A stretch of 64,000 nucleotides of DNA from Acidobacteriota bacterium. GTDB taxonomy: Bacteria; Acidobacteriota; Vicinamibacteria; Vicinamibacterales; SCN-69-37. The notes under the pieces were generated by a model. The model had not been told where the DNA came from, did no database searches, and saw only the letters and a program-made list of their open reading frames with translations. How positions within the stretch are numbered: position 1 is the stretch's first letter; every line of letters begins with the position of its first letter. The position numbers were made by a program, and so were the translations under genes. Of the stretch, positions 26,223 through 37,091 are shown piece by piece. The stretch lies in the NCBI GenBank assembly GCA_020853395.1, contig JADYYY010000002.1:146609-210608 (forward strand), written 5' to 3'.

Positions 26223-28928
26223 TCAGCGGCCTGGCGCCGCCCGCATCAACCCCGTCAGCTCGTCGTCGGTCCACGGATTCGTCCGCCCGGCCGTCTCGGC
26301 CCTCACGGCCGCGACCTCTTCCGGCGCAACTGGCGCGCCCGCCTGATTCCATTCCCGGCGGATGTAGGTCAGCACGCTCGACACGTCGGCATCGGTCATG
26401 GTCGCGCCGAGAGGTGGCATCAGACCGATCGCTCCCTCTTTGCCGTTCAACAAGACCCGAACCGGGATCCGGGAATCGGCGAAGGCGATCGCCGATCCGA
26501 CGAGCGGCGGCGCGAGGCGATCCTGACCGCGCCCGTCAGGCTGATGGCAGGCCTGGCAGGCGTTCCGGTAAACCTCACGGCCGCGTTCGAATCGGGCCTG
26601 TTCGACGGCCGTCAACGGGCGACCGGCGACGGACGATGGCCCGCCGGCGAGCTTGCCGGGCCATTCGACACGGCCGAGAAGCGCCGCGGCCCTCGGCGCC
26701 AGCGGATCCGGAGACTCGATGGCGAGCGTCGTCAACGATTGAGGCGCGGCCCGCAGGCGCAGCGGTGCGCTGCCGCGTCCGGCCGCCGGAGCGGACGTCG
26801 CGGCCTGCTGCGCTTCGCGGACGCCGGGAAACGCGTACGACCCGCCCGGACCGCCTCGTGCGCCGGGGCAGGTCGGGCACGGCGGAGCGGGCGCCGGCGG
26901 TCCACCACGCCGGGCCGCGGTGCCCGGCAAGGCGCCACCGATGAGCGCGACCTCGGCACCGCGCAGCAGCGCCGTCCGCGACCACGACGTCAGCGACGCG
27001 CTGGCGATCCGATCGAACAGCCGCGTCACGTCCTCCTCCCGGCCGCTTCGCGCCACCGTCGCGGCGAGCATCGTCACGGCGGCCGATCGTGCCGGCGTGT
27101 CGCTGCCGGCCAGCAGCTCATCGGCGATCGCCAGCTCGCTGCCGGCGGCTCCGCTGAGCGCGACGTCCACGATGATGGGATCGGTGCCATAGCGCGACAG
27201 CACGTCCGCGAGCGCGCGCGCCTTGTCGGCGCCCGGCATGGCGCCGAGCGAGGCGGCCACCTGCTGCCGCACCATCCAGTCGTCATCGGCGACGCGGCGC
27301 CGTACGGCGTCGCGCACCCGCGTCTCTCGAGGATCGGCGAGCCAGCGCTCGGCCAGGCGCAGCGCCGATGCCCGCACCTCGCGAGACCGATCGTCGAGCG
27401 CGCGGACCACGACGTCCGGCGCGAGACGATCGAGTCCTTCCAACGTCCACAGCGCGTGCAGGCGCGTGCGCCAGTCGCCGGCCGTCGACGCAAGTGCCGC
27501 AAGATCCGACGCCACCGCAACGGCCCGCCGCTCGACAATCAGACGCTGGGCGGTTTCGCGCCACCACGCGTTCGGATGCGACAGCATCTTCACCAGCGCC
27601 GAGGCCGACGCCGTCGCCAGGCCGGTCGGCTCGGCGCGGCGCGTCGTGTCGTGGACGACGCGATAGATGCGCCCCAGGCCGATCGGGGTGTCGAGCTGCT
27701 TGCGCACGATGTAGTCGCGCAGGTAGGTCGTCGTGGACGACTTGTCCTGAATGACGCCGCGATACATGTCCACGACGTAGAGCGTGCCGTCCGGCGCGTT
27801 CGCGAGGTACACGGGCCGGAATCGCTCGTCGGTCGACGCGATGAACTCGGCGCGCGCGTACGCCTTCTCGGCGCGCAGCAACGCGCCGGTGTCGCTCAGC
27901 ACCAGGCGGCTCACCAGGTTGGCCGCCGGCTCGGCGACGAACGCGTTCCCGTACAGCTCGGCCGGCAGCCGATCGCCGCGGTAGATGAGCGGCGCGCAGA
28001 CGGCGGTGAAGCGCGCGAGGGTGCCGTCCGGCCGGTCGATGCCGAGCTGGTACGCGCGGTTCGTGCCGGGGGTCGGCCGCACGGGCCACACGTCGTTCAG
28101 CGCGTCGTTGTCGATCGCGAGCGACTCGTAGAGGCCTCGCGTGCGGAGCAGCGACGCGTGGCGCGCGTAGTACTCGGCGGGAACGACGTCGACGTGCAGG
28201 GCCGACTCGTTCGTGTTCCGGTACATGCGGCCGGCGTCGTCCTGCGTGACGCCCCATTCGCCGCGCAGCGGAATCCTTCGAATCTCGAACCGCCCGTTGC
28301 GCCGGCGCAGATCGATCTCGGCGCCCGACGTGTGCAGCCAGTTGTCGAGGCCCCAATAGAGGCCGTTGGCGTTTCCTTCGACGCTGCCTTCACGGCGGCC
28401 GTACTCACGCGTGACGATGTCCTTCACGTCGGCGCGCAGATCGTGATTCGTGTCGCGCATCCACCAGAGGATGCCCGGTTCGGCGACGAGCACGCCGTCG
28501 TCGAGCACCTTCACGCCGCGCGGCACCGCCAGTCCATCGGCGAACACCGTGCGCCGATCCATCCGGCCGTCGTGATTCGTGTCTTCGAGCACGACAACGC
28601 GTCCGATCGGGTCGAGGTTGGGTTCCGGCGCGTCGAGCGTCCGGACGAACCCGGTCATCTCGACGACCCACAGCCGGCCTTCGAGGTCCCAGTCGATGAC
28701 GGTCGGATCCTGGACGAGCGGCTCGGCCGCGACGAGCTCGAGACGATAGCCCGGCGGAAGGGAGAACGTCTTCAGCGCGTCGGCGGGCGACAAGGCCGGC
28801 GAGGCCTCGCCGACGGGCTGCACGCCGGGCGGCCAGGTGCGTGCCGGCGAGGCGTCCTGCCCGATACCTCGCGCGAAGGTGCTCGTGACGAAGACGGCGA
28901 CGGCGAACAGTCGAACGGAGAGCCTCAC
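26223..28928 (-). CDS. PVC-type membrane-bound dehydrogenase: beta-propeller, HEAT repeats, cytochrome c
   Basis: 901 aa. Signal peptide (RLFAVAVFVTSTFARG), then a sorbosone/glucose dehydrogenase-like beta-propeller (about 55-430; YRLELVAAEPLVQDP, NHDGRMDRRTVFADGL, YVVDMYRGVIQD), a HEAT-repeat helical domain (about 440-670), a Pro/Gly-rich linker and a C-terminal cytochrome c (CQACH at about 795, MPPLG axial-ligand region). Such fusions are common in Planctomycetes and Acidobacteriota, probably in sugar or polyol oxidation; biochemistry is sparse. GTG 28928 has GAGG upstream and starts at the signal peptide; a TTG further upstream is less likely. Divergent from the TIM-barrel gene. Confidence 0.85.
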   Translation of the reverse strand: MRLSVRLFAVAVFVTSTFARGIGQDASPARTWPPGVQPVGEASPALSPADALKTFSLPPGYRLELVAAEPLVQDPTVIDWDLEGRLWVVEMTGFVRTLDAPEPNLDPIGRVVVLEDTNHDGRMDRRTVFADGLAVPRGVKVLDDGVLVAEPGILWWMRDTNHDLRADVKDIVTREYGRREGSVEGNANGLYWGLDNWLHTSGAEIDLRRRNGRFEIRRIPLRGEWGVTQDDAGRMYRNTNESALHVDVVPAEYYARHASLLRTRGLYESLAIDNDALNDVWPVRPTPGTNRAYQLGIDRPDGTLARFTAVCAPLIYRGDRLPAELYGNAFVAEPAANLVSRLVLSDTGALLRAEKAYARAEFIASTDERFRPVYLANAPDGTLYVVDMYRGVIQDKSSTTTYLRDYIVRKQLDTPIGLGRIYRVVHDTTRRAEPTGLATASASALVKMLSHPNAWWRETAQRLIVERRAVAVASDLAALASTAGDWRTRLHALWTLEGLDRLAPDVVVRALDDRSREVRASALRLAERWLADPRETRVRDAVRRRVADDDWMVRQQVAASLGAMPGADKARALADVLSRYGTDPIIVDVALSGAAGSELAIADELLAGSDTPARSAAVTMLAATVARSGREEDVTRLFDRIASASLTSWSRTALLRGAEVALIGGALPGTAARRGGPPAPAPPCPTCPGARGGPGGSYAFPGVREAQQAATSAPAAGRGSAPLRLRAAPQSLTTLAIESPDPLAPRAAALLGRVEWPGKLAGGPSSVAGRPLTAVEQARFERGREVYRNACQACHQPDGRGQDRLAPPLVGSAIAFADSRIPVRVLLNGKEGAIGLMPPLGATMTDADVSSVLTYIRREWNQAGAPVAPEEVAAVRAETAGRTNPWTDDELTGLMRAAPGR

Positions 28929-29054
28929 GGCATGGCACCTCGCGGAACGGGCAGCCTGGAGTCCAGAGAATACCAATTCTCGCGCCGATGGCGGCGGGCG
29001 GACGGTGTAGCATCATTTCCGCCGGATCGTCCGCCGGCCGTCGAGGAGAGCGCT

Positions 29055-29954
29055 ATGACACGCCGATGGTTTCTCACCGCCGCTGGCACGGCCGTGGCCG
29101 CTACCGCCGTCGGGCCGCGCGCCCAGAGCGCATTGCCGCCGGCGCGCACGGCGCGGTTCCGCACGGGGCTCGTCGCCTACTCCTTTCAGCGAGCGCTCCA
29201 GTCCGGACAGATGACGTACGAAGACTTGATCCGGCTCGCGGTCGACACCGACATCGACGGCATCGACATGACCGTGTACTGGCTGCCGAGCCTCGACGAC
29301 AAGTACCTGCTGTCGCTTCGCCAGCTCGCGTATCGCAATCGCGTGGAGATCTACAGCATCGGCACGCGCGTGCAGCTCTCGCAGCCGACGCCAGACCAGC
29401 AGGCCAAGCAGCTCGCCGACCTCGCGAAATGGGTCGACGTCGCCCAGAAGCTCGGCGCGAGCCACATCCGCGTGTTCGGCGGACAGAAGCCCGCCGGTGC
29501 CACGCTCGAGCAGGCGATCGCGTTCGCGGCCGACACCTTGCGGAAAGGCGCCGAGCACGCGGGCTCGCGCGGCATCACGCTCGGCGTCGAAGACGATGGC
29601 GGGATCACGGAGTACGCGAAGGAGACGATCGCGATCGTCACGGGGGCGGGATCGCCCTGGGCCGGCATGAACCTCGACATCGGCAACTTCCGGCCGCCGC
29701 GCGTCTACGAACAGATCGAGCTGTCGATCCCGCACGCCGTGAGCACGCACATCAAGACGACCGTCGCGCTCGACGACGGCAGCGGGCGCGCGCCGTTCGA
29801 CCTGGATCGCGTGTACCGCATGTTCGCCGCGCACGGCTACCGCGGCTACATGGGGCTCGAATACGAGGCCGGCGGAGAGGACCCGGCGACGGCCGTACCG
29901 CGCCATCTCGGCCAGCTCAGGGCGCTGGCGGCGAAGTACTCCCGGGCGTCCTGA
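29055..29954 (+). CDS. Tat-exported sugar phosphate isomerase/epimerase-like TIM-barrel protein
   Basis: 299 aa. MTRRWFLTAAGTAVAATAVG is a Tat-like signal. The xylose-isomerase-like AP endonuclease 2 barrel follows (about 38-298), with GLVAYSF, DGIDMTVYW, GVEDDGG, MNLDIGNF and GYMGLEYE carrying the usual metal-binding Glu/Asp/His ring. GAGGAG lies 6 nt upstream of ATG 29055. Export to the periplasm suggests action on keto-sugars produced by nearby dehydrogenases. The reaction is unknown. Confidence 0.85.
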   Translation: MTRRWFLTAAGTAVAATAVGPRAQSALPPARTARFRTGLVAYSFQRALQSGQMTYEDLIRLAVDTDIDGIDMTVYWLPSLDDKYLLSLRQLAYRNRVEIYSIGTRVQLSQPTPDQQAKQLADLAKWVDVAQKLGASHIRVFGGQKPAGATLEQAIAFAADTLRKGAEHAGSRGITLGVEDDGGITEYAKETIAIVTGAGSPWAGMNLDIGNFRPPRVYEQIELSIPHAVSTHIKTTVALDDGSGRAPFDLDRVYRMFAAHGYRGYMGLEYEAGGEDPATAVPRHLGQLRALAAKYSRAS

Positions 29955-29973
29955 TACCTGCTCGGCGCCTGCT

Positions 29974-29994
29974 CCGCCCGGCACGACCGGGCGG
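29974..29994 (+). terminator. GC-rich hairpin after the TIM-barrel gene
   Basis: CCGCCCGG / CCGGGCGG, a perfect 8-bp stem with a 5-nt loop, 20 nt past the stop codon. No T-tract follows. Confidence 0.45.
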
Positions 29995-30215
29995 GCCGCC
30001 TCGGGCACCGCGATGTGCCGGCGTGGCCAGCCTGCCGCGGGCACGCTGGCGAGGAGACGTTTGCCTCCCGGCAGACGGCAGGCCAGGCCCACGACAGCGC
30101 GGAGCCTCCGCCGCGCATCATCGCTCGAAGCTCGAGATGGGCCGCCCCGCGACGGCGGCGATGCGCACAAGACCGGGGCAACGCGCCGCCAGGCGCGGGT
30201 ATACTGCTCGCTATC

Positions 30216-31760
30216 ATGAAAGCTGCCCAAACGTTCGCGTCCGTCACTGGACGTCTGCGGCGTCGAGGCGTCGGCCCGCGCGCCTTGATCGTTCTGGCCG
30301 TGCTCGCCGCCGCGGTCGCGGTTCCGGTGGCGCAGACGCCCTTGGAACGCGCGCAGCAGGATAGCGAACGCGGCGACCGCATGTTCGCCGATGCGAAGTA
30401 CCGCGAAGCGTTCGACGCCTACAGCAAAGCGGTCACGACGACCGATCGTCCGGCGGCGATTCGGGCGCTCAAAGGCATGATCAAGGCCGCGTTGCGGCTC
30501 TCCAGTTTCCGGCTCGCCCGGTCGCAGGCGGAGGTGCTCCGGGCATCGACGGGCGACGCCGAGTCGCTCACGCTCTACGGCGATGCGCTCTGGGCGGATG
30601 GGCTGTTCGACGAAGCCGAAGGCGCGTACGACACCGCGCTCGAGCGGTTCCCTTCGTCGTCGCGCGCGCACTTCGGCCTGGCACGATCGCTCGCGGCCCG
30701 CGGCCGGCTCGCCGAAGCGCTCGCGGAAGCGGAGCGTGCGATGGTGATGGATCCCGTCGACTCCGATCCCGTCGTGCTCGCCGGCGAGCTGTACGAGCGG
30801 CTGTACCGGTTCGACGATGCGGCGCGGATGTACGAGCGGTACGTGGCGATGCTGCCCAAGCGCCTTCGCAACGACAACAACGTCGCGGCGATGAAGATCA
30901 AGCTCCTGCGGAGCTTCGACGGCCGCGTGCCGGCGCGGATCGACGACGAAGCGACGGCCCCGCTCCACACGGTGCCGTTCACGCTCAAGAACAAGAAGAT
31001 CATCCTGCGGGGCACCTTGAACGGCAAACAGGTCGAGATGGTGCTCGACACCGGCGCCGAGCGAACGGCCATCACCCGCGCGATGGCGAACCGCACGAAC
31101 ATCCATGGCATCGCCGAGACGATGATCACGGGCGTCGGCGCGCCCGGCGTGCGGCGGTTGTCGGTGGCGCGCGTCGACGCGCTGACGTTCGGCACCCTCA
31201 CCGTGCGCGACTTCCCGGTGTCGATTCGCAAGGACAACATGCCGGGCGTACCCGACTGGCAGAACGAGACGTTCTCGCCGATGTCGCTCGGCCTGTCGAT
31301 GGTGATCGACTACCGCCGCCAGGAGGTCACCTTCGGCCGGCGGCTGCCGGACGACTCGGCGGAGTTCACGCTGCCGATGCGCGTCTATCGTCTCCCCATG
31401 ATCCGCGGGATGCTCAACGACAAGCAGCCGGCCTACTTCATCGTGGACACCGGCGGCGAGCTGATGTCGATCAGCACCGATGTCGCGACAGCGCTCGCGA
31501 TGGCGCCGCGCCGCAAGATCCCGTTGAAGGTCTGGGGTGTGACCGGTCTGGATCGCGACGCGTTCCTGCTGCCCGGCGTGGACCTGGACTTCCAGGACAT
31601 CGCGTATCGCCAGCAGGGCGTCGCCGTGTTGAACCTGCGCGCCCCGAGCGTGCTGCTCGGGTTCCAGGTCGGCGGCATCCTCGGGCACCGCTTCCTCAGC
31701 GGCTATCGCGTCGCCATGGACATCCAGCGCGGCGAGCTCCGCCTGCAGCGGTCGAACTGA
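30216..31760 (+). CDS. TPR protein with two retropepsin-like aspartyl protease motifs
   Basis: 514 aa. Signal or anchor segment (about 24-40, ALIVLAVLAAAVAVPVAQ), TPR helices (about 45-225), then two retropepsin-like halves: VLDTGAERT with Asp278 and IVDTGGELM with Asp411. Both match the Asp-Thr-Gly active-site signature, so one chain could assemble the two-aspartate catalytic centre that retropepsins form by dimerising. Downstream elements ILGHRFLSGYRVAMDIQRGEL resemble the conserved C-terminal strand of aspartyl-protease-2 domains. ATG 30216 follows a TATACT box at 30200-30205. Probably periplasmic; substrate unknown. Confidence 0.8.
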   Translation: MKAAQTFASVTGRLRRRGVGPRALIVLAVLAAAVAVPVAQTPLERAQQDSERGDRMFADAKYREAFDAYSKAVTTTDRPAAIRALKGMIKAALRLSSFRLARSQAEVLRASTGDAESLTLYGDALWADGLFDEAEGAYDTALERFPSSSRAHFGLARSLAARGRLAEALAEAERAMVMDPVDSDPVVLAGELYERLYRFDDAARMYERYVAMLPKRLRNDNNVAAMKIKLLRSFDGRVPARIDDEATAPLHTVPFTLKNKKIILRGTLNGKQVEMVLDTGAERTAITRAMANRTNIHGIAETMITGVGAPGVRRLSVARVDALTFGTLTVRDFPVSIRKDNMPGVPDWQNETFSPMSLGLSMVIDYRRQEVTFGRRLPDDSAEFTLPMRVYRLPMIRGMLNDKQPAYFIVDTGGELMSISTDVATALAMAPRRKIPLKVWGVTGLDRDAFLLPGVDLDFQDIAYRQQGVAVLNLRAPSVLLGFQVGGILGHRFLSGYRVAMDIQRGELRLQRSN

Positions 31761-32111
31761 CGCGTCGCGTGCGGAACGATGAGTCGCGGACCGGCTAGAG
31801 TTCGCAACGCGAATCTCACGCGCCGGTTCGTTCGCGCTTCCGGTACTTCATTGCCGACCAACGTCGTCGCCATTTACAGGGTGGCGAGGGCATCGTCTAC
31901 ACTGCTGCGAGTGACGCGCCGCCTCCGGACGAAGGCGCCGGACGCTTCGCGTTTCTCGTTTGGACTCCCCCTCCAGTCCACGTCGGGCCGCGTCGCGCGA
32001 TGACGCGCGTCGATCGGTCGCGAGGATCTGGCCGGGGCACGGGTCTTGCTCTTTGCGTCGAGCGGCGTGCTCGAAGCTGCCCGAAAGCCGACAGGGGCGG
32101 GAAGGGACGGT
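31761..32111. other. 351-bp leader/promoter region of the electron-conduit operon
   Basis: No gene seen. It contains a weak sigma-70-like pair TTTACA (31873) and TACACT (31898) with a long 19-nt spacer, a small hairpin TGGACT/AGTCCA (31961-31980), and a near-perfect sigma-54 promoter at 32035-32050. No c-di-GMP riboswitch motif was recognised. Confidence 0.6.
32035..32050 (+). promoter_or_regulatory. sigma-54 (-24/-12) promoter of the decaheme/MtrB operon
   Basis: GGGCAC-N5-TTGCT: only the first base departs from the TGGCAC-N5-TTGCT consensus, with GG (32036-32037) and GC (32048-32049) exactly 10 nt apart. The predicted start near 32061 gives a 51-nt leader to ATG 32112. Best -24/-12 match in the window. 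Confidence 0.65.
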
Positions 32112-33095
32112 ATGAGCAACAAGCTCGTCAGACTCAGCAGGAAGGCGTGGTGGGCGTGCGCGATTCTCGTCTGGCTCGCCGCGCTCGTGAGCGTGCAGGC
32201 GGACGATCGGGCCCCACGAGGGCCGGAAAAGTCCGCAGCCGCCCAGAATCCTCCTCAGCAATCACCGGCCGCCGCCGGCCCCGACCAGTACGTGGGCAAC
32301 GAGTCCTGTCTCGGCTGCCACGACGAGGCGCGTGAAGGGTACGAGCGCAGCCTGCATCACTTCGGCAACGATCGGCGCACTCCTGCAGCGGATCGTGGCT
32401 GCGAGACGTGCCATGGGCCGAACAGCCGGCACGCCGACGATCCGGACCACGTGCCGCCGACGCGGGATCTCAAGACGCTCCCGGCCGACGACCTCAACGC
32501 GATCTGCACCACGTGCCATAGCCGCGGCGAGCACGCGCTCTGGGACGGCAGCGAGCACGAGCGTCGCGACGTGGCGTGCACGGCCTGCCACAGCATGCAC
32601 AGCGCCAAATCGGAAGAGGGCTTCCTCAAGGGACGGACCGAGATGGAGACCTGTGCCACCTGCCATCGCGACAAGGTCGCGCGGCAGGATCGGTCGGGGC
32701 ACATGCCGCTGCGCGAGGGCAAGCTGGCGTGCTCGAGCTGCCACAACCCGCACGGGTCGACGAACGTGCGGCTGCTCCGCACGGGGGACTCGATCGCCGA
32801 GACCTGCACCTCCTGTCATGCCGACAAGCGCGGGCCGTTCCTGTACGAGCACGCGCCGAGCCGTGACGGCTGCGTCACCTGTCACGATCCGCACGGTTCG
32901 TCCAACGAACGGATGCTCGTCGTGAAGACGCCGATGCTGTGCCAGCGCTGCCACGTCGCGACGCGGCATCCAAGCACGATCTACGACCAGGCCCTCATCA
33001 ACACCAGCGTGCGCGTCTACGCGCGATCGTGCGTCACCTGCCACGCGAACATTCACGGCTCGAATCACCCTGCCGGGCGATTCTTCATCCGGTGA
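32112..33095 (+). CDS. decaheme c-type cytochrome (DmsE/MtrA-like)
   Basis: 327 aa, close to MtrA length (about 330). Signal peptide (about 1-30, WWACAILVWLAALVSVQA). Ten CxxCH motifs can be counted from CLGCH (66-70) through CETCH, CTTCH, CTACH, CATCH, CSSCH, CTSCH, CVTCH and CQRCH to a last CVTCH near residue 307, with distal His residues in NPHGS and DPHGS repeats. In the known systems this periplasmic cytochrome inserts in an MtrB barrel and conducts electrons across the outer membrane. ATG 32112 follows AAGGGACGG. The MtrB-type gene begins 11 bp downstream. Confidence 0.95.
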   Translation: MSNKLVRLSRKAWWACAILVWLAALVSVQADDRAPRGPEKSAAAQNPPQQSPAAAGPDQYVGNESCLGCHDEAREGYERSLHHFGNDRRTPAADRGCETCHGPNSRHADDPDHVPPTRDLKTLPADDLNAICTTCHSRGEHALWDGSEHERRDVACTACHSMHSAKSEEGFLKGRTEMETCATCHRDKVARQDRSGHMPLREGKLACSSCHNPHGSTNVRLLRTGDSIAETCTSCHADKRGPFLYEHAPSRDGCVTCHDPHGSSNERMLVVKTPMLCQRCHVATRHPSTIYDQALINTSVRVYARSCVTCHANIHGSNHPAGRFFIR

Positions 33096-33106
33096 CGGGA
33101 GGTCGT

Positions 33107-35368
33107 ATGCGCATCCGTGCTCTGCTCCTCACCATCCCGATCGCGCTCGTGCCCGCCGTTCTCGTGGCGCAGGCCCCCACCCAACCGCAGCCCGCGGCGC
33201 CGGCCGGGCCAAGCGCGCAGGCGCCCGGCGGCGCTGCCGCGGCGGCGGAGGAAGTCGACGAAGACGCCCTGCCGACGACGTACGGCACGGTCGACTTCGG
33301 CGTGCGAACGACGAGCCTGTCGGGTCCGGACCGTGGCGCGCGCTATGAGCGCTATCGCGATCTCGGCGATGGGCTCTTCCTCGACCGCGGCCGGTACAGC
33401 ACGCAGCAACGCGGCTGGCTCGTCGATCTCGGCACCGACCACCTCGGGCGCAGCGATCAGCGGTTCACCGGCCGCATCGTCCGCCCGGGCCAGGTGAAGA
33501 TCTGGGCCGGCTGGGATCAGATTCCCATGCTGATGAGCCGGACGACCCGGACGCTCTTCACGGCGAGCTCGCCGGCCGGCGTCCTCGAGATCCCGAACGA
33601 GATCCAGTCGGCCGTGCAGGCCCAGCCCGCGTCGCTCGCCGGATTCGTCCAGAACGCCAGGCAGTTCGATCTGAAGTCGCAGCGGCACATCTTCACCGGC
33701 GGCGGCCAGTACATCGCCACGAGCGGCATCACGATCACCGGCAACGTCCGCCAGATCAACCGCGACGGCGCCGTCCCGTTCGGCGGCTCGTTCGGCCACA
33801 GCCAGGTCGTCGAGACGCTGGCGCCGGTCAAGCACCAGACGACCGACTTCGACTCGAACGCCGAGTACCAGCGCGGCAGCCTGCTCGTGCGCGGCGGCTA
33901 CACCGGATCGTGGTTCCGCAACGACGTGACGTCGCTCACGTTCGACAACCCGTTCCGCGTGACCGACATCTCGACGGCCGGCTCACGAGGACGGGCCGCG
34001 CTGGCGCCGAGCAACTCCTTCGTCGGCGTGAACGGGATGGTGTCGTACAAGCTGCCGCGGCGCTCCCGCGTCACCGCCACCCTCTCGGCCGGGAGCCTGA
34101 CCGACTCCGGCGCCGCGTTGCTGCCGATGACCGTGAACACCACGCTCGCGACGGTCGCGCTCGCTCGGCCGACCACCGAAGGCAAGGCCAACACCTCGTC
34201 GGTCAACCTGGCGTTCACCTCGCGACCGACGCGCACGGTCGACGTGGACGTGCGGTACCGCACGTACGACTACGACAACCGCACGCCGGAATTCCTCGTG
34301 ACGCAGCGCGTCGGGTTCGACTCGGGCATCTCGAGCGTCACGAATCCGGCGCTGCAGCTCACCGAGCCGTTCGGCGTGAAGCGCGAGACGTTCGACGCCG
34401 ACGTCCGGCTGGTGCCGATTCGCGCCTTCTCCGCCGGCGTCGGGTTCTCGCATCAGCGCGAGGAGCGCACGCACCGCATCTTCGAGCGGACGGACGACAA
34501 CACGATCCGCTTCTCGGTCGACTCGATCGGCAATCGGTGGGTGACGCTGCGGTCGAAGTACGAGCACTCGCAGAAGCGCGGCGAAGGCAACGTGGCCGAG
34601 ATCGCCGCCGAGCTGCTCGCCATCGGCGAGCAGCCGGGCCTGCGGCACTTCGACATCGCGTCGCGCAATCGCGACCGGGGCACGATTCAGCTCGCGCTCA
34701 CACCGCTCAGCACCATGTCGGTCAACGCGTCGGTGGCCGCCGGCAAGGACGACTACCTCGAGAGCCTGTTCGGCCTCCGCGACAACAGCCATCGGGTGTA
34801 CACGACCGGTGTCGACTTCGCGCCGTCGGAGTACGTCACGGCAGGCCTGTCGTATTCGTTCGAGCAGTACAAGTCGCTGTCCCGATCGCGGCAGGCGAAC
34901 CCGGGGGTGCAGTTCGACGACCCGTCGCGCAACTGGGCCACGAACACGACGGACCGGGCACACTCGGTCATCGCGCATCTCGAGCTGCTGCAACTGGTGC
35001 AGAATCTCGACGTGCAGGTGTGGGCCGACCACAGCCGGACCCGCGGGCTCTATCGCTACACGACCGGGGCCGTCGTCGATCGGACGCTGCCGGAAGAGGT
35101 GGTCGTGCCGACGTCGCTCCCCGATCCGACGCAGCTTCCCCCGGTCACGAGCGGCCTGACGCGAGGTACTATCGATGTGACGTACGCGCTCTCGGAGCGA
35201 TGGAGCGTGGGGCTGTCCACCTGGTACGAGCGGTATCGCGTGCGGGATTTCAGTCTCGACGCGGAAGCGCTGTCGCGGCTCGATCCGGCAGGCGCCCTCT
35301 TGCTCGGCTACCAGTACCTGCCCTACACCGCGACGACCCTCTGGGGGCGCGCCATCTACAAGTTCTGA
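33107..35368 (+). CDS. MtrB/PioB family outer-membrane beta-barrel porin
   Basis: 753 aa. Signal peptide (MRIRALLLTIPIALVPAVLVAQ), Pro/Ala linker, then a long run of alternating amphipathic beta strands typical of a large (roughly 26-28 strand) barrel, e.g. YGTVDFGVRTTSLSG near the N-terminus, ending ATTLWGRAIYKF with a C-terminal Phe as outer-membrane assembly signal. It sheathes the decaheme cytochrome in the outer membrane. GGGAGG lies 5 nt before ATG 33107. Directly downstream of its cytochrome partner, as in mtrAB/pioAB. Confidence 0.92.
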   Translation: MRIRALLLTIPIALVPAVLVAQAPTQPQPAAPAGPSAQAPGGAAAAAEEVDEDALPTTYGTVDFGVRTTSLSGPDRGARYERYRDLGDGLFLDRGRYSTQQRGWLVDLGTDHLGRSDQRFTGRIVRPGQVKIWAGWDQIPMLMSRTTRTLFTASSPAGVLEIPNEIQSAVQAQPASLAGFVQNARQFDLKSQRHIFTGGGQYIATSGITITGNVRQINRDGAVPFGGSFGHSQVVETLAPVKHQTTDFDSNAEYQRGSLLVRGGYTGSWFRNDVTSLTFDNPFRVTDISTAGSRGRAALAPSNSFVGVNGMVSYKLPRRSRVTATLSAGSLTDSGAALLPMTVNTTLATVALARPTTEGKANTSSVNLAFTSRPTRTVDVDVRYRTYDYDNRTPEFLVTQRVGFDSGISSVTNPALQLTEPFGVKRETFDADVRLVPIRAFSAGVGFSHQREERTHRIFERTDDNTIRFSVDSIGNRWVTLRSKYEHSQKRGEGNVAEIAAELLAIGEQPGLRHFDIASRNRDRGTIQLALTPLSTMSVNASVAAGKDDYLESLFGLRDNSHRVYTTGVDFAPSEYVTAGLSYSFEQYKSLSRSRQANPGVQFDDPSRNWATNTTDRAHSVIAHLELLQLVQNLDVQVWADHSRTRGLYRYTTGAVVDRTLPEEVVVPTSLPDPTQLPPVTSGLTRGTIDVTYALSERWSVGLSTWYERYRVRDFSLDAEALSRLDPAGALLLGYQYLPYTATTLWGRAIYKF

Positions 35369-35384
35369 CGGAGGAGCGAACGAC

Positions 35385-35747
35385 ATGACGCGAACACTGG
35401 GAGCAGTTGCGGTGGCCGTGGCCCTGACCGGCGGCACGGTCTTCGGCCAGGCGCCCGATCCGAAGCTCGTCGATCAGGGCAAGAAGCTGTACGCCACGTA
35501 CAAGTGCGACAAGTGCCACATGATCGGCGGCAAGGGCAGCAAGAAGGGCCCGCTCGACGGCGTCGGCGCCAAGCTCTCTCCCACGGAGATCCGGCAGTGG
35601 CTCACGCATCCAGCCGAGATGGAGGCGAAGCTCGAGAAGCCGCCCAAGGGCACCGACTCGATGGCCAACGCGCTGAAGACGAAGAACATCGAGCCGGCCG
35701 AAGTCGACGCGCTGGTCGCCTACCTGCGCACGTTGACGAAGAAGTAG
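35385..35747 (+). CDS. small monoheme cytochrome c
   Basis: 120 aa secreted class I-like cytochrome. Signal peptide about 1-22, a single CDKCH at about 41-45 and a Met-containing segment (KGTDSMANALK) likely supplying the axial ligand. C-terminal helix VDALVAYLRTL. Third gene of the conduit operon, 16 bp after the barrel gene. A soluble periplasmic shuttle between the NapC-like protein and the decaheme cytochrome is the natural inference. Confidence 0.9.
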   Translation: MTRTLGAVAVAVALTGGTVFGQAPDPKLVDQGKKLYATYKCDKCHMIGGKGSKKGPLDGVGAKLSPTEIRQWLTHPAEMEAKLEKPPKGTDSMANALKTKNIEPAEVDALVAYLRTLTKK

Positions 35748-35765
35748 CGGCCAGACGAGGACGCG

Positions 35766-37091
35766 ATGACGCCAGACGACGCCCGAGACTCGGTGCCGAG
35801 GCTCGCCCGCAATCCGGTCTCGATCGCCGGCGCGTGGCTCACGACGCTGAGCGTCATCGCGTTCTGCGCCTACGTGGCGCTCGAGCAGTTCGGCCTGCTG
35901 GCGTCGCCCTACGCCGGGCTGTTCGGCTTCGTGTTCGCTCCGGCGTGCTTTCTCTTCGGTCTGCTGCTGATCCCGATTGGCATCGGGATCGAAGGACGCC
36001 GCCGGCGCCGCGGGCGCGCCGCCTGGCGATGGCCCGCGATCGATCTTTCGGACGCCCGCACGCGCACGGTGCTCGTGGCGATCGCAGGATTGACGATCAT
36101 CAATCTCGCCATCGTGTCGGTGGCGGGCGTCGGTCTCGTCCACTACTCCGAGTCCAACGAGTTCTGCGGGGGACTCTGCCACGTGCCCATGGAGCCCGAG
36201 GCCACCGCGCACGAGCAGAACGCCCACTCGCGGGTGGACTGCGTCGCGTGCCACGTCGGCCCCGGCGTGAGCGGCGCCGTGACGGCGAAGATGAACGGCA
36301 CCAGGCAGCTCTGGGGCGTGATCACCGGCAACTATCACCGGCCCATCCCGTCGCCGCGCGAGCGGATGCCGGTGCCTGGCCAGACCTGCAACCGTTGTCA
36401 TGCGCCCGTGGCGCCGGACCGCACCGTGCAGCGCGTCTTCCGCGAGCACAAAGACAACGAGACCAGCAGCGAGATCACCACCACGCTCCTGATGTACACG
36501 GGCAAGAACCACTGGCACGCCAGGCCGGACGTCGTCGTCGAGTTCGCCGCTGAAGCCGACGACCTGAAGACCATTCCGTACGTCAAGGTCACCGAGAACG
36601 GCAAGGTGACCGAGTACTTCGCGGAGGGCGTCACGGCGCCCCCGCAGGGTCGGCCGCTCGTCCGCATGGACTGCGTCGACTGCCACAACAGGCCGGCACA
36701 CACGCTGGCCCAGACGCCGGCCCAGGTCGTCGACCAGGCGATCGTGCGCCGCGAGATCGACACGGCCCTGCCGTTCGCCCGGAGCGAGATGGTCGAGGCG
36801 CTCGGCGCGGAGTACCCCGCCGGCACGGACGCGAGGCAGGCCATCGCCGCCAGGCTCACCGAGAAGTTCGGCACGAGCCCCGCGGCGAAGCAGGCGGTGG
36901 CGGTGGCGATCCGGCTCTACTCCGAGCACGTGTTCCCTCGCATGAACGTCACGTGGGACACGTACACGAACCAGCTCTTCCACATCGACGACACGGGCTG
37001 CTTCCGCTGTCATACCGACGAGCACAAGACGAAGGACGCCGAGCCCAAGGTGGTGCGACAGGATTGCGATCTCTGCCATCTCGAGCAGTAG
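35766..37091 (+). CDS. NapC/NirT-like inner-membrane multiheme cytochrome c
   Basis: 441 aa, larger than CymA/NapC (about 190-200). Three hydrophobic segments (about 20-45, 52-75, 98-125) precede a periplasmic multiheme domain. Heme motifs: an atypical CGGLCH (CX3CH, Cys134-His139), then CVACH, CNRCH, CVDCH, CFRCH and CDLCH. Role in known relatives: quinol oxidation and electron delivery to periplasmic cytochromes. Fourth and last gene of the operon, 18 bp after the small cytochrome. With the upstream genes it completes a quinol-to-outside path. Confidence 0.88.
   Translation: MTPDDARDSVPRLARNPVSIAGAWLTTLSVIAFCAYVALEQFGLLASPYAGLFGFVFAPACFLFGLLLIPIGIGIEGRRRRRGRAAWRWPAIDLSDARTRTVLVAIAGLTIINLAIVSVAGVGLVHYSESNEFCGGLCHVPMEPEATAHEQNAHSRVDCVACHVGPGVSGAVTAKMNGTRQLWGVITGNYHRPIPSPRERMPVPGQTCNRCHAPVAPDRTVQRVFREHKDNETSSEITTTLLMYTGKNHWHARPDVVVEFAAEADDLKTIPYVKVTENGKVTEYFAEGVTAPPQGRPLVRMDCVDCHNRPAHTLAQTPAQVVDQAIVRREIDTALPFARSEMVEALGAEYPAGTDARQAIAARLTEKFGTSPAAKQAVAVAIRLYSEHVFPRMNVTWDTYTNQLFHIDDTGCFRCHTDEHKTKDAEPKVVRQDCDLCHLEQ

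Follow-up and report, generated by a model that had tools for sequence, protein, structure and literature searches.

A widespread TPR-containing protein of Acidobacteriota is predicted to be a single-chain, two-lobed aspartic protease built from retropepsin-type halves

Introduction

Enzymes of the pepsin family (MEROPS A1), bacterial homologues included, are single bilobal chains with one catalytic Asp in each lobe. Excerpts of one account describe the lobes of pepsin as resembling each other in sequence only at their psi-loop motifs, and present as debated whether pepsin arose from a duplicated and fused retropepsin-like half or retropepsin from half a pepsin (PMC2761423). Retropepsins such as HIV-1 protease, Ddi1, APRc, RloA and the PerP/TIGR02281 proteins are, by comparison, dimeric. 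In excerpts of the respective reports, the single-domain bacterial retropepsin-like enzyme RloA is a dimer in crystals and by SEC-MALS (PMC12239564) and the single-lobed bacterial retropepsin-like enzyme APRc accumulates in dimeric form (PMC4140852); excerpts of a review of clan AA contain nothing on two-lobed bacterial forms (PMC2642776).

A single chain in which two retropepsin-type lobes follow an N-terminal domain is already known from the Protein Data Bank, in entry 9iy9 (released 2025-08-06), a Bacteroides fragilis protein labelled 'putative endopeptidase' and 'Exported protein' with a DTG motif in each lobe. Our literature search, which covered open-licence PMC papers, found no paper on 9iy9 or on a Bacteroides fragilis aspartyl protease, and none of the matches listed described an architecture of two retropepsin-type lobes with tetratricopeptide repeats (TPRs). 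A further single-chain comparison is offered by the C-terminal domain of Mycobacterium tuberculosis Rv0977 (PDB 4ehc), which we take to be a bilobal aspartic protease that belongs to the PE_PGRS group and lacks TPRs.

Here we describe an Acidobacteriota gene whose product is very probably a single-chain aspartic endoprotease that is exported, most likely to the periplasm, and in which two retropepsin-type lobes pair within the chain and share one Asp278/Asp411 dyad.

Results

A TPR array followed by two retropepsin-type lobes

The window (the whole 64,000-nucleotide stretch of DNA analysed here) contains a gene whose 514-aa translation runs without an internal stop (Table 1). Its GC3 of 0.90, against a GC content of 0.68 for the gene, is that expected of coding sequence, and an antisense open reading frame (29013-31688, minus strand) looks like a GC-rich shadow ORF. 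A scan of 29900-32100 found no promoter-like site and a single terminator-like site, on the minus strand and at chance level.

Within the protein, the pattern D[TSG]G occurs in exactly two places, at D278 (VLDTGAE) and D411 (IVDTGGE). The first-pass annotation had reported two DTG sites in one chain, 133 residues apart, behind a TPR array. The residues and their spacing proved exact, and both lobes score above the cut-off of 24.3 bits for PF13650 (Asp_protease_2), at 54.1 and 27.5 bits. The TPR array was likewise confirmed, by Pfam TPR models that match mostly at residues ~115-216 and by predicted helices that are paired from residue 42 to 232. These two lobes, in one frame, are the only PF13650 matches in the organism's own genome (8 of 8 candidates scored). 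A chance pair of DTG triplets was ruled out, as both lobes exceed the Pfam cut-off and both Asp residues are conserved.

Table 1. Features of the gene and its product, in positions of the window
Feature	Position	Strand	Basis
Gene, TPR + two-lobed aspartic protease	30216..31760	+	514 aa, translation without internal stop
N-terminal leader with hydrophobic core, residues ~1-41	30216..30338	+	Read from the sequence and the relatives' alignment; probable Sec signal
TPR helical array, residues ~42-232	30339..30911	+	Pfam TPR_16, TPR_2, TPR_14; model helices H42-58 to H222-232
Protease lobe 1, residues ~250-376	30963..31343	+	PF13650, 54.1 bits; AlphaFold2 model
Lobe 1 active-site triad D278-T279-G280	31047..31055	+	Motif and conservation
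Lobe 1 putative flap-tip motif G306-V307-G308	31131..31139	+	DSSP of the model, between strands 298-304 and 313-325; flap assignment inferred
Protease lobe 2, residues ~383-514	31362..31757	+	PF13650, 27.5 bits; hhalign lobe 1 vs lobe 2, E 1.8e-22
Lobe 2 active-site triad D411-T412-G413	31446..31454	+	Motif and conservation
Lobe 2 short hairpin turn G441-x-x-G444, putative flap position	31536..31547	+	DSSP of the model; flap assignment inferred
Lobe 2 hydrophobic-hydrophobic-Gly (psi-loop) motif, residues 487-494 (GILGHRFL)	31674..31697	+	Alignment; G490 and L494 invariant in A1

Related family models gave lower scores. TIGR02281, a clan AA protease family that we take to be PerP-like, reaches 37.5 bits against a cut-off of 57.95, which leaves the protein outside that family, and the retroviral Pfam family RVP reaches 19.3 against a cut-off of 20.7. 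The pepsin model PF00026 is absent from the 22 Pfam families that match at E up to 1, in a search whose HMMER filters drop weak hits.

A hydrophobic stretch at residues ~23-39, recognised by eye, recurs among the relatives, and the protein contains no Cys and hence no lipobox Cys. The hydrophobic leader and the absence of Cys suggest that the protease is probably exported. The start codon of the leader is unsure, many homologues beginning nearer residue 10-20. Bacterial homologues of pepsin are, by contrast, predicted to be intracellular in excerpts of the account cited above (PMC2761423).

Relatives across the phylum retain both active-site motifs

We searched 297 genomes of the phylum at E <= 1e-10, scoring five first-look candidates per genome (so that misses are possible), and obtained matches in 65 of them. 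These fall in 27 of the 30 genomes of the same order (each with a single match, and counting the source genome), in neither of the two genomes from the rest of the class and in 38 of the 265 genomes from outside the class. Of the 70 match rows, the 66 that were read comprise the window's own copy and 65 relatives. Both Asp residues are present in 64 of the 65 relatives; the exception, L067, is a match to the TPR part only. Alignment A1 holds 62 rows, with four relatives left out, namely three that have both Asp residues and L067.

Eight positions are invariant in A1: Asp278, Gly280, Asp365, Asp411, Gly441, Gly444, Gly490 and Leu494. The lobe 1 triad has D and G in 62 of 62 rows, with T in 60 and S in 2 at its centre, and the lobe 2 triad has D in 62 of 62, T in 52 and S in 10, and G in 61, Gly413 being replaced by Ala in one relative. 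At the lobe 1 hairpin, position 306 is G in 46 rows and A in 16, and position 308 is G in 61 of 62.

In a second set, drawn from 80 named loci of the order and holding 82 copies, G306 and G308 are present in every copy and V307 in 81. Both DTG motifs are also invariant in all 82, a count biased by the fetch pattern, which contained the Asp411 motif; the phylum-search set of 297 genomes is free of this bias. At the level of the order the two lobes carry distinct motifs, DTG[AS] in lobe 1 vs DTGG in lobe 2, and the hairpin motifs at the putative flaps also differ. Two of the 80 named loci (L072, 6044-9377; L074, 2251-5381) carry two protease copies that are adjacent and in the same orientation.

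A scan of GTDB genomes returned 117 relatives. Among the best 80 of the 117, which were kept, 74 are labelled as Acidobacteria or a group therein, and the remaining six, all from metagenome-assembled genomes, bear the labels Acidimicrobiia (three times), Bifidobacterium, Cyanobacteria and Woeseiaceae. This distribution most likely places the window in an acidobacterium near Vicinamibacterales.

The leader, the lack of a lipobox Cys (indeed of any Cys) and the recovery of several relatives from groundwater, lake, soil and fen samples would also suit a protease that is secreted or sits on the cell surface and breaks down environmental protein for nutrition, instead of processing proteins in the periplasm. 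We consider such a role unlikely, because a single match per genome in 27 of the 30 genomes of the order looks more like a housekeeping function and because, from general knowledge, a TPR array would be unusual on a free digestive protease. A periplasmic location is thus the one that we prefer.

The two-lobed form is common among Acidobacteriota

The first-pass annotation had started from the premise that bacterial retropepsin-like domains usually occur singly in a chain. A survey of Asp_protease_2 loci, consisting of the 29 best-match loci from 119 genomes of the phylum and hence a best-scoring rather than a random sample, does not uphold it. By lobe profiles, 20 of the 29 loci are two-lobed and 9 single-lobed, with scores as low as 10-28 bits for some second lobes. 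Of the 20 two-lobed loci, ten had already been found in the phylum search; among the other 19 loci, 10 are two-lobed. The Bacteroides crystal structure 9iy9 has the same layout. Rarity of the tandem form was therefore ruled out, by its presence in 27 of the order's 30 genomes and in 20 of the 29 inspected loci, and this two-lobed kind of bacterial protein is both genuine and widespread.

The predicted fold joins both lobes in a single unit

AlphaFold2, run on A1, predicts the full-length protein as a single bilobal unit (pLDDT 92.9, pTM 0.88), and the protease part alone is modelled with similar scores (pLDDT 90.9, pTM 0.88). In lobe 1, strands 298-304 and 313-325 (block pLDDT 81 and 89) flank the GVG motif at 306-308, a position at which HIV-1 protease has its flap tip. 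The lobe 2 hairpin is shorter and turns at G441-x-x-G444 (DSSP of the model). Both hairpins would act as flaps in such a fold.

Compared with VIA-align, the protease part matches renin (5kos; Z 18.5, 3.7 Å, 248 residues aligned) and human pepsin (1pso; Z 17.5, 3.8 Å, 240 aligned) across both lobes, and the pepsins and renins among the matches listed range over Z 17.4-18.5, 3.6-4.2 Å and 240-251 residues. The predicted model thus has the layout of family A1, a bilobal single chain with one D[TS]G Asp per lobe. TM-scores to pepsins normalised by query length are only about 0.55-0.64, and Foldseek rmsd values exceed those of VIA-align for the same matches (4.5 Å for 9iy9, 5.1 Å for 4eq0 and about 6-10 Å for pepsin-like chains). 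Because both lobes fit pepsin in one alignment, the model implies that Asp278 and Asp411 would meet in one site, provided that this alignment is a single rigid superposition. A caveat for this reading is that AlphaFold2 may pair homologous lobes in the known manner whatever the truth.

A pepsin-like bilobal arrangement of retropepsin halves was what the first-pass annotation had proposed, with structure prediction as a check. The model agrees with it, in that the lobes form one unit with a hairpin at each flap position and align over both lobes with pepsins and single-chain HIV-1 protease; it gives no suggestion of the opposing picture, in which the two Asp residues lie far apart and no flap is present.

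Bacteroides fragilis 9iy9 is the closest structural relative

In each structure comparison 9iy9 was the top protease match. Against the full model it gives a Foldseek E of 1.5e-16 and, with VIA-align, Z 27.0 at 4.0 Å over 381 aligned residues (residues 112-511); against the protease part, VIA-align gives Z 22.9 at 3.1 Å over 256 residues. Including the TPR part thus adds ~125 aligned residues, which suggests that the TPR array of the model sits against the protease in the way seen for the N-terminal domain in the 9iy9 crystal. A sequence profile from alignment A3, whose relatives span 18-59% identity, finds 9iy9 over both lobes (E 5.3e-12) in stretches that each carry DTG. The two proteins share the same domain order, form one alignable unit and have DTG in both lobes. 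They differ in that identity is 14% in the structural alignments, that the 9iy9 chain has 420 aa vs 514 aa here, and that the alignment starts at residue 112 of our protein, so that fewer N-terminal repeats fit.

Each lobe also resembles the dimeric retropepsins as a retropepsin-type domain with DTG and a flap-like hairpin, and the A3 profile matches Ddi1 over lobe 1 (1.4e-8). The difference is that both halves, now diverged, lie in one natural chain. With two lobes per chain and intrachain pairing in the model, the protein does not conform to the A2-like pattern of single-lobed dimers. Foldseek ranks an artificially tethered HIV-1 protease second among its matches to the model; for the protease part, tethered 4eq0 gives E 4.1e-10 and TM 0.73 by target length, and tethered single-chain HIV-1 proteases reach TM 0.74 by target length at 5.1-6.5 Å. 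The Rv0977 domain (4ehc) aligns over most of the protease part, although at 8.4 Å rmsd (Foldseek E 4.1e-9, TM 0.56).

Bilobal matches also include the storage globulins basic 7S globulin (3aup) and conglutin gamma (4pph), which we take to be without protease activity, and the protein could by analogy be a non-catalytic one that binds peptides or a partner. Conservation makes this improbable. Both Asp residues are invariant among relatives that share 18-59% identity (A3). In A1 each Asp is followed by T or S in every row and then, with a single exception, by Gly, and the hairpin residues G308, G441 and G444 are retained in 61, 62 and 62 of 62 rows, whereas a pseudo-enzyme would be expected to lose catalytic and hairpin residues. 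On the strength of both conserved catalytic motifs, the protein is very probably an active protease. Alternatively, each lobe could join a lobe from another chain, in a retropepsin-like or domain-swapped dimer with two active sites. Excerpts on the dimeric single-domain enzymes RloA (PMC12239564) and APRc (PMC4140852) provide a precedent, but such pairing is very improbable here, as the monomer model confidently brings the two lobes together and fits monomeric pepsins across both of them, and as the lobes are now non-equivalent, with DTG[AS] vs DTGG in the order and different flap motifs.

Similarity between the lobes retains a trace of duplication

Profiles of lobe 1 and lobe 2 align with each other over 126 columns (hhalign probability 99.5, E 1.8e-22; a single comparison) and, for the order alone, over 79 columns (probability 96.9, E 1.6e-10; again a single comparison). 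The lobes thus still align by sequence, and duplication and fusion are therefore still readable. This extent of similarity contrasts with pepsin, in which excerpts of PMC2761423 confine it to the psi-loop motifs.

Trees of the lobes were poorly resolved. Counting one change as a clean split, the tree of 69 rows and 132 columns required 5 changes for lobe 1 rows and 4 for lobe 2 rows, and a reduced free tree of 54 rows, from which 15 long or oddly placed rows of eight loci had been dropped, required 3 and 2. Among 200 bootstrap trees, the lobe 1 rows made up one side of a branch in 0% and the lobe 2 rows in 6%. An AU test did not reject a single clade of lobe 1 rows (p-AU 0.42) or of lobe 2 rows (0.30). 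A recent duplication within the order was 12.7 log units worse (p 0.145) and was not rejected either. One old duplication is accordingly allowed by the trees, without being demonstrated by them.

Gene neighbourhood

The window copy sits between a xylose-isomerase-like TIM-barrel gene, before it, and a multihaem cytochrome/porin cluster, after it. This cluster (32046-37091, plus strand), directly after the protease gene, is a probable extracellular electron transfer cluster. It encodes a DmsE-family decaheme cytochrome (TIGR03508, above cut-off), an MtrB/PioB outer-membrane porin (PF11854, above cut-off; TIGR03509, just below its own cut-off), a small cytochrome c and a NapC/NirT-type multihaem protein. 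Elsewhere in the window, 26223-28976 (minus strand) encodes a PVC-type heme-binding CxxCH protein (TIGR02604) with DUF7133, HEAT repeats and a C-terminal cytochrome c domain.

In 68 of the 80 named loci, a total that counts truncated contigs too, a gene on the opposite strand lies downstream of the protease gene, with a median length of ~1050 aa and a median gap of ~550 bases. The one member scanned (L146, 11711-14863, minus strand) has only PD40 beta-propeller repeats by Pfam, and no such neighbour was found in the 18 kb that surround the window's protease copy. This gene was ruled out as an operon partner because it is convergent with the protease gene. Across the window copy and the 80 named loci we found no conserved operon partner, and the neighbours point to no substrate.

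Discussion

The comparisons above are most readily accommodated by a single-chain protease acting in the periplasm. In the mechanism that we propose, the two retropepsin-type lobes (residues ~245-514) would pair within one chain in the manner of pepsin's, Asp278 and Asp411 would form one catalytic dyad that activates water, and the lobe 1 hairpin and the shorter hairpin of lobe 2 would close over the bound peptide. The TPR array, predicted to hold a fixed place on the protease part, would probably select or position protein substrates or a partner; docking of the substrate by the array is one possibility. With no conserved operon partner found, a first guess at the role is that the enzyme would process or turn over exported proteins in general.

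The duplication-fusion step was reportedly put forward for pepsin in 1978. We tentatively propose, at rather less than even likelihood, that the two-lobed exported proteases of Acidobacteriota and their Bacteroides relative may be a second, independent 'pepsin', arising from a retropepsin-type gene duplicated and fused within bacteria, separately from A1. The comparison that bears on independence from A1 is the Pfam search, in which PF00026 gave no listed match.

Our results delineate a widespread exported protein class in Acidobacteriota, of which our search of open-licence PMC papers found no characterisation. The protein described here is a natural single chain, both halves of which are still recognised by the same Pfam model, and single-lobed members occur in the phylum as well; for this reason the splitting and fusing of lobes is directly testable on it. 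If the class is indeed an independent second 'pepsin', it would provide a living model of the step put forward for pepsin, with single-lobed cousins in the same phylum.
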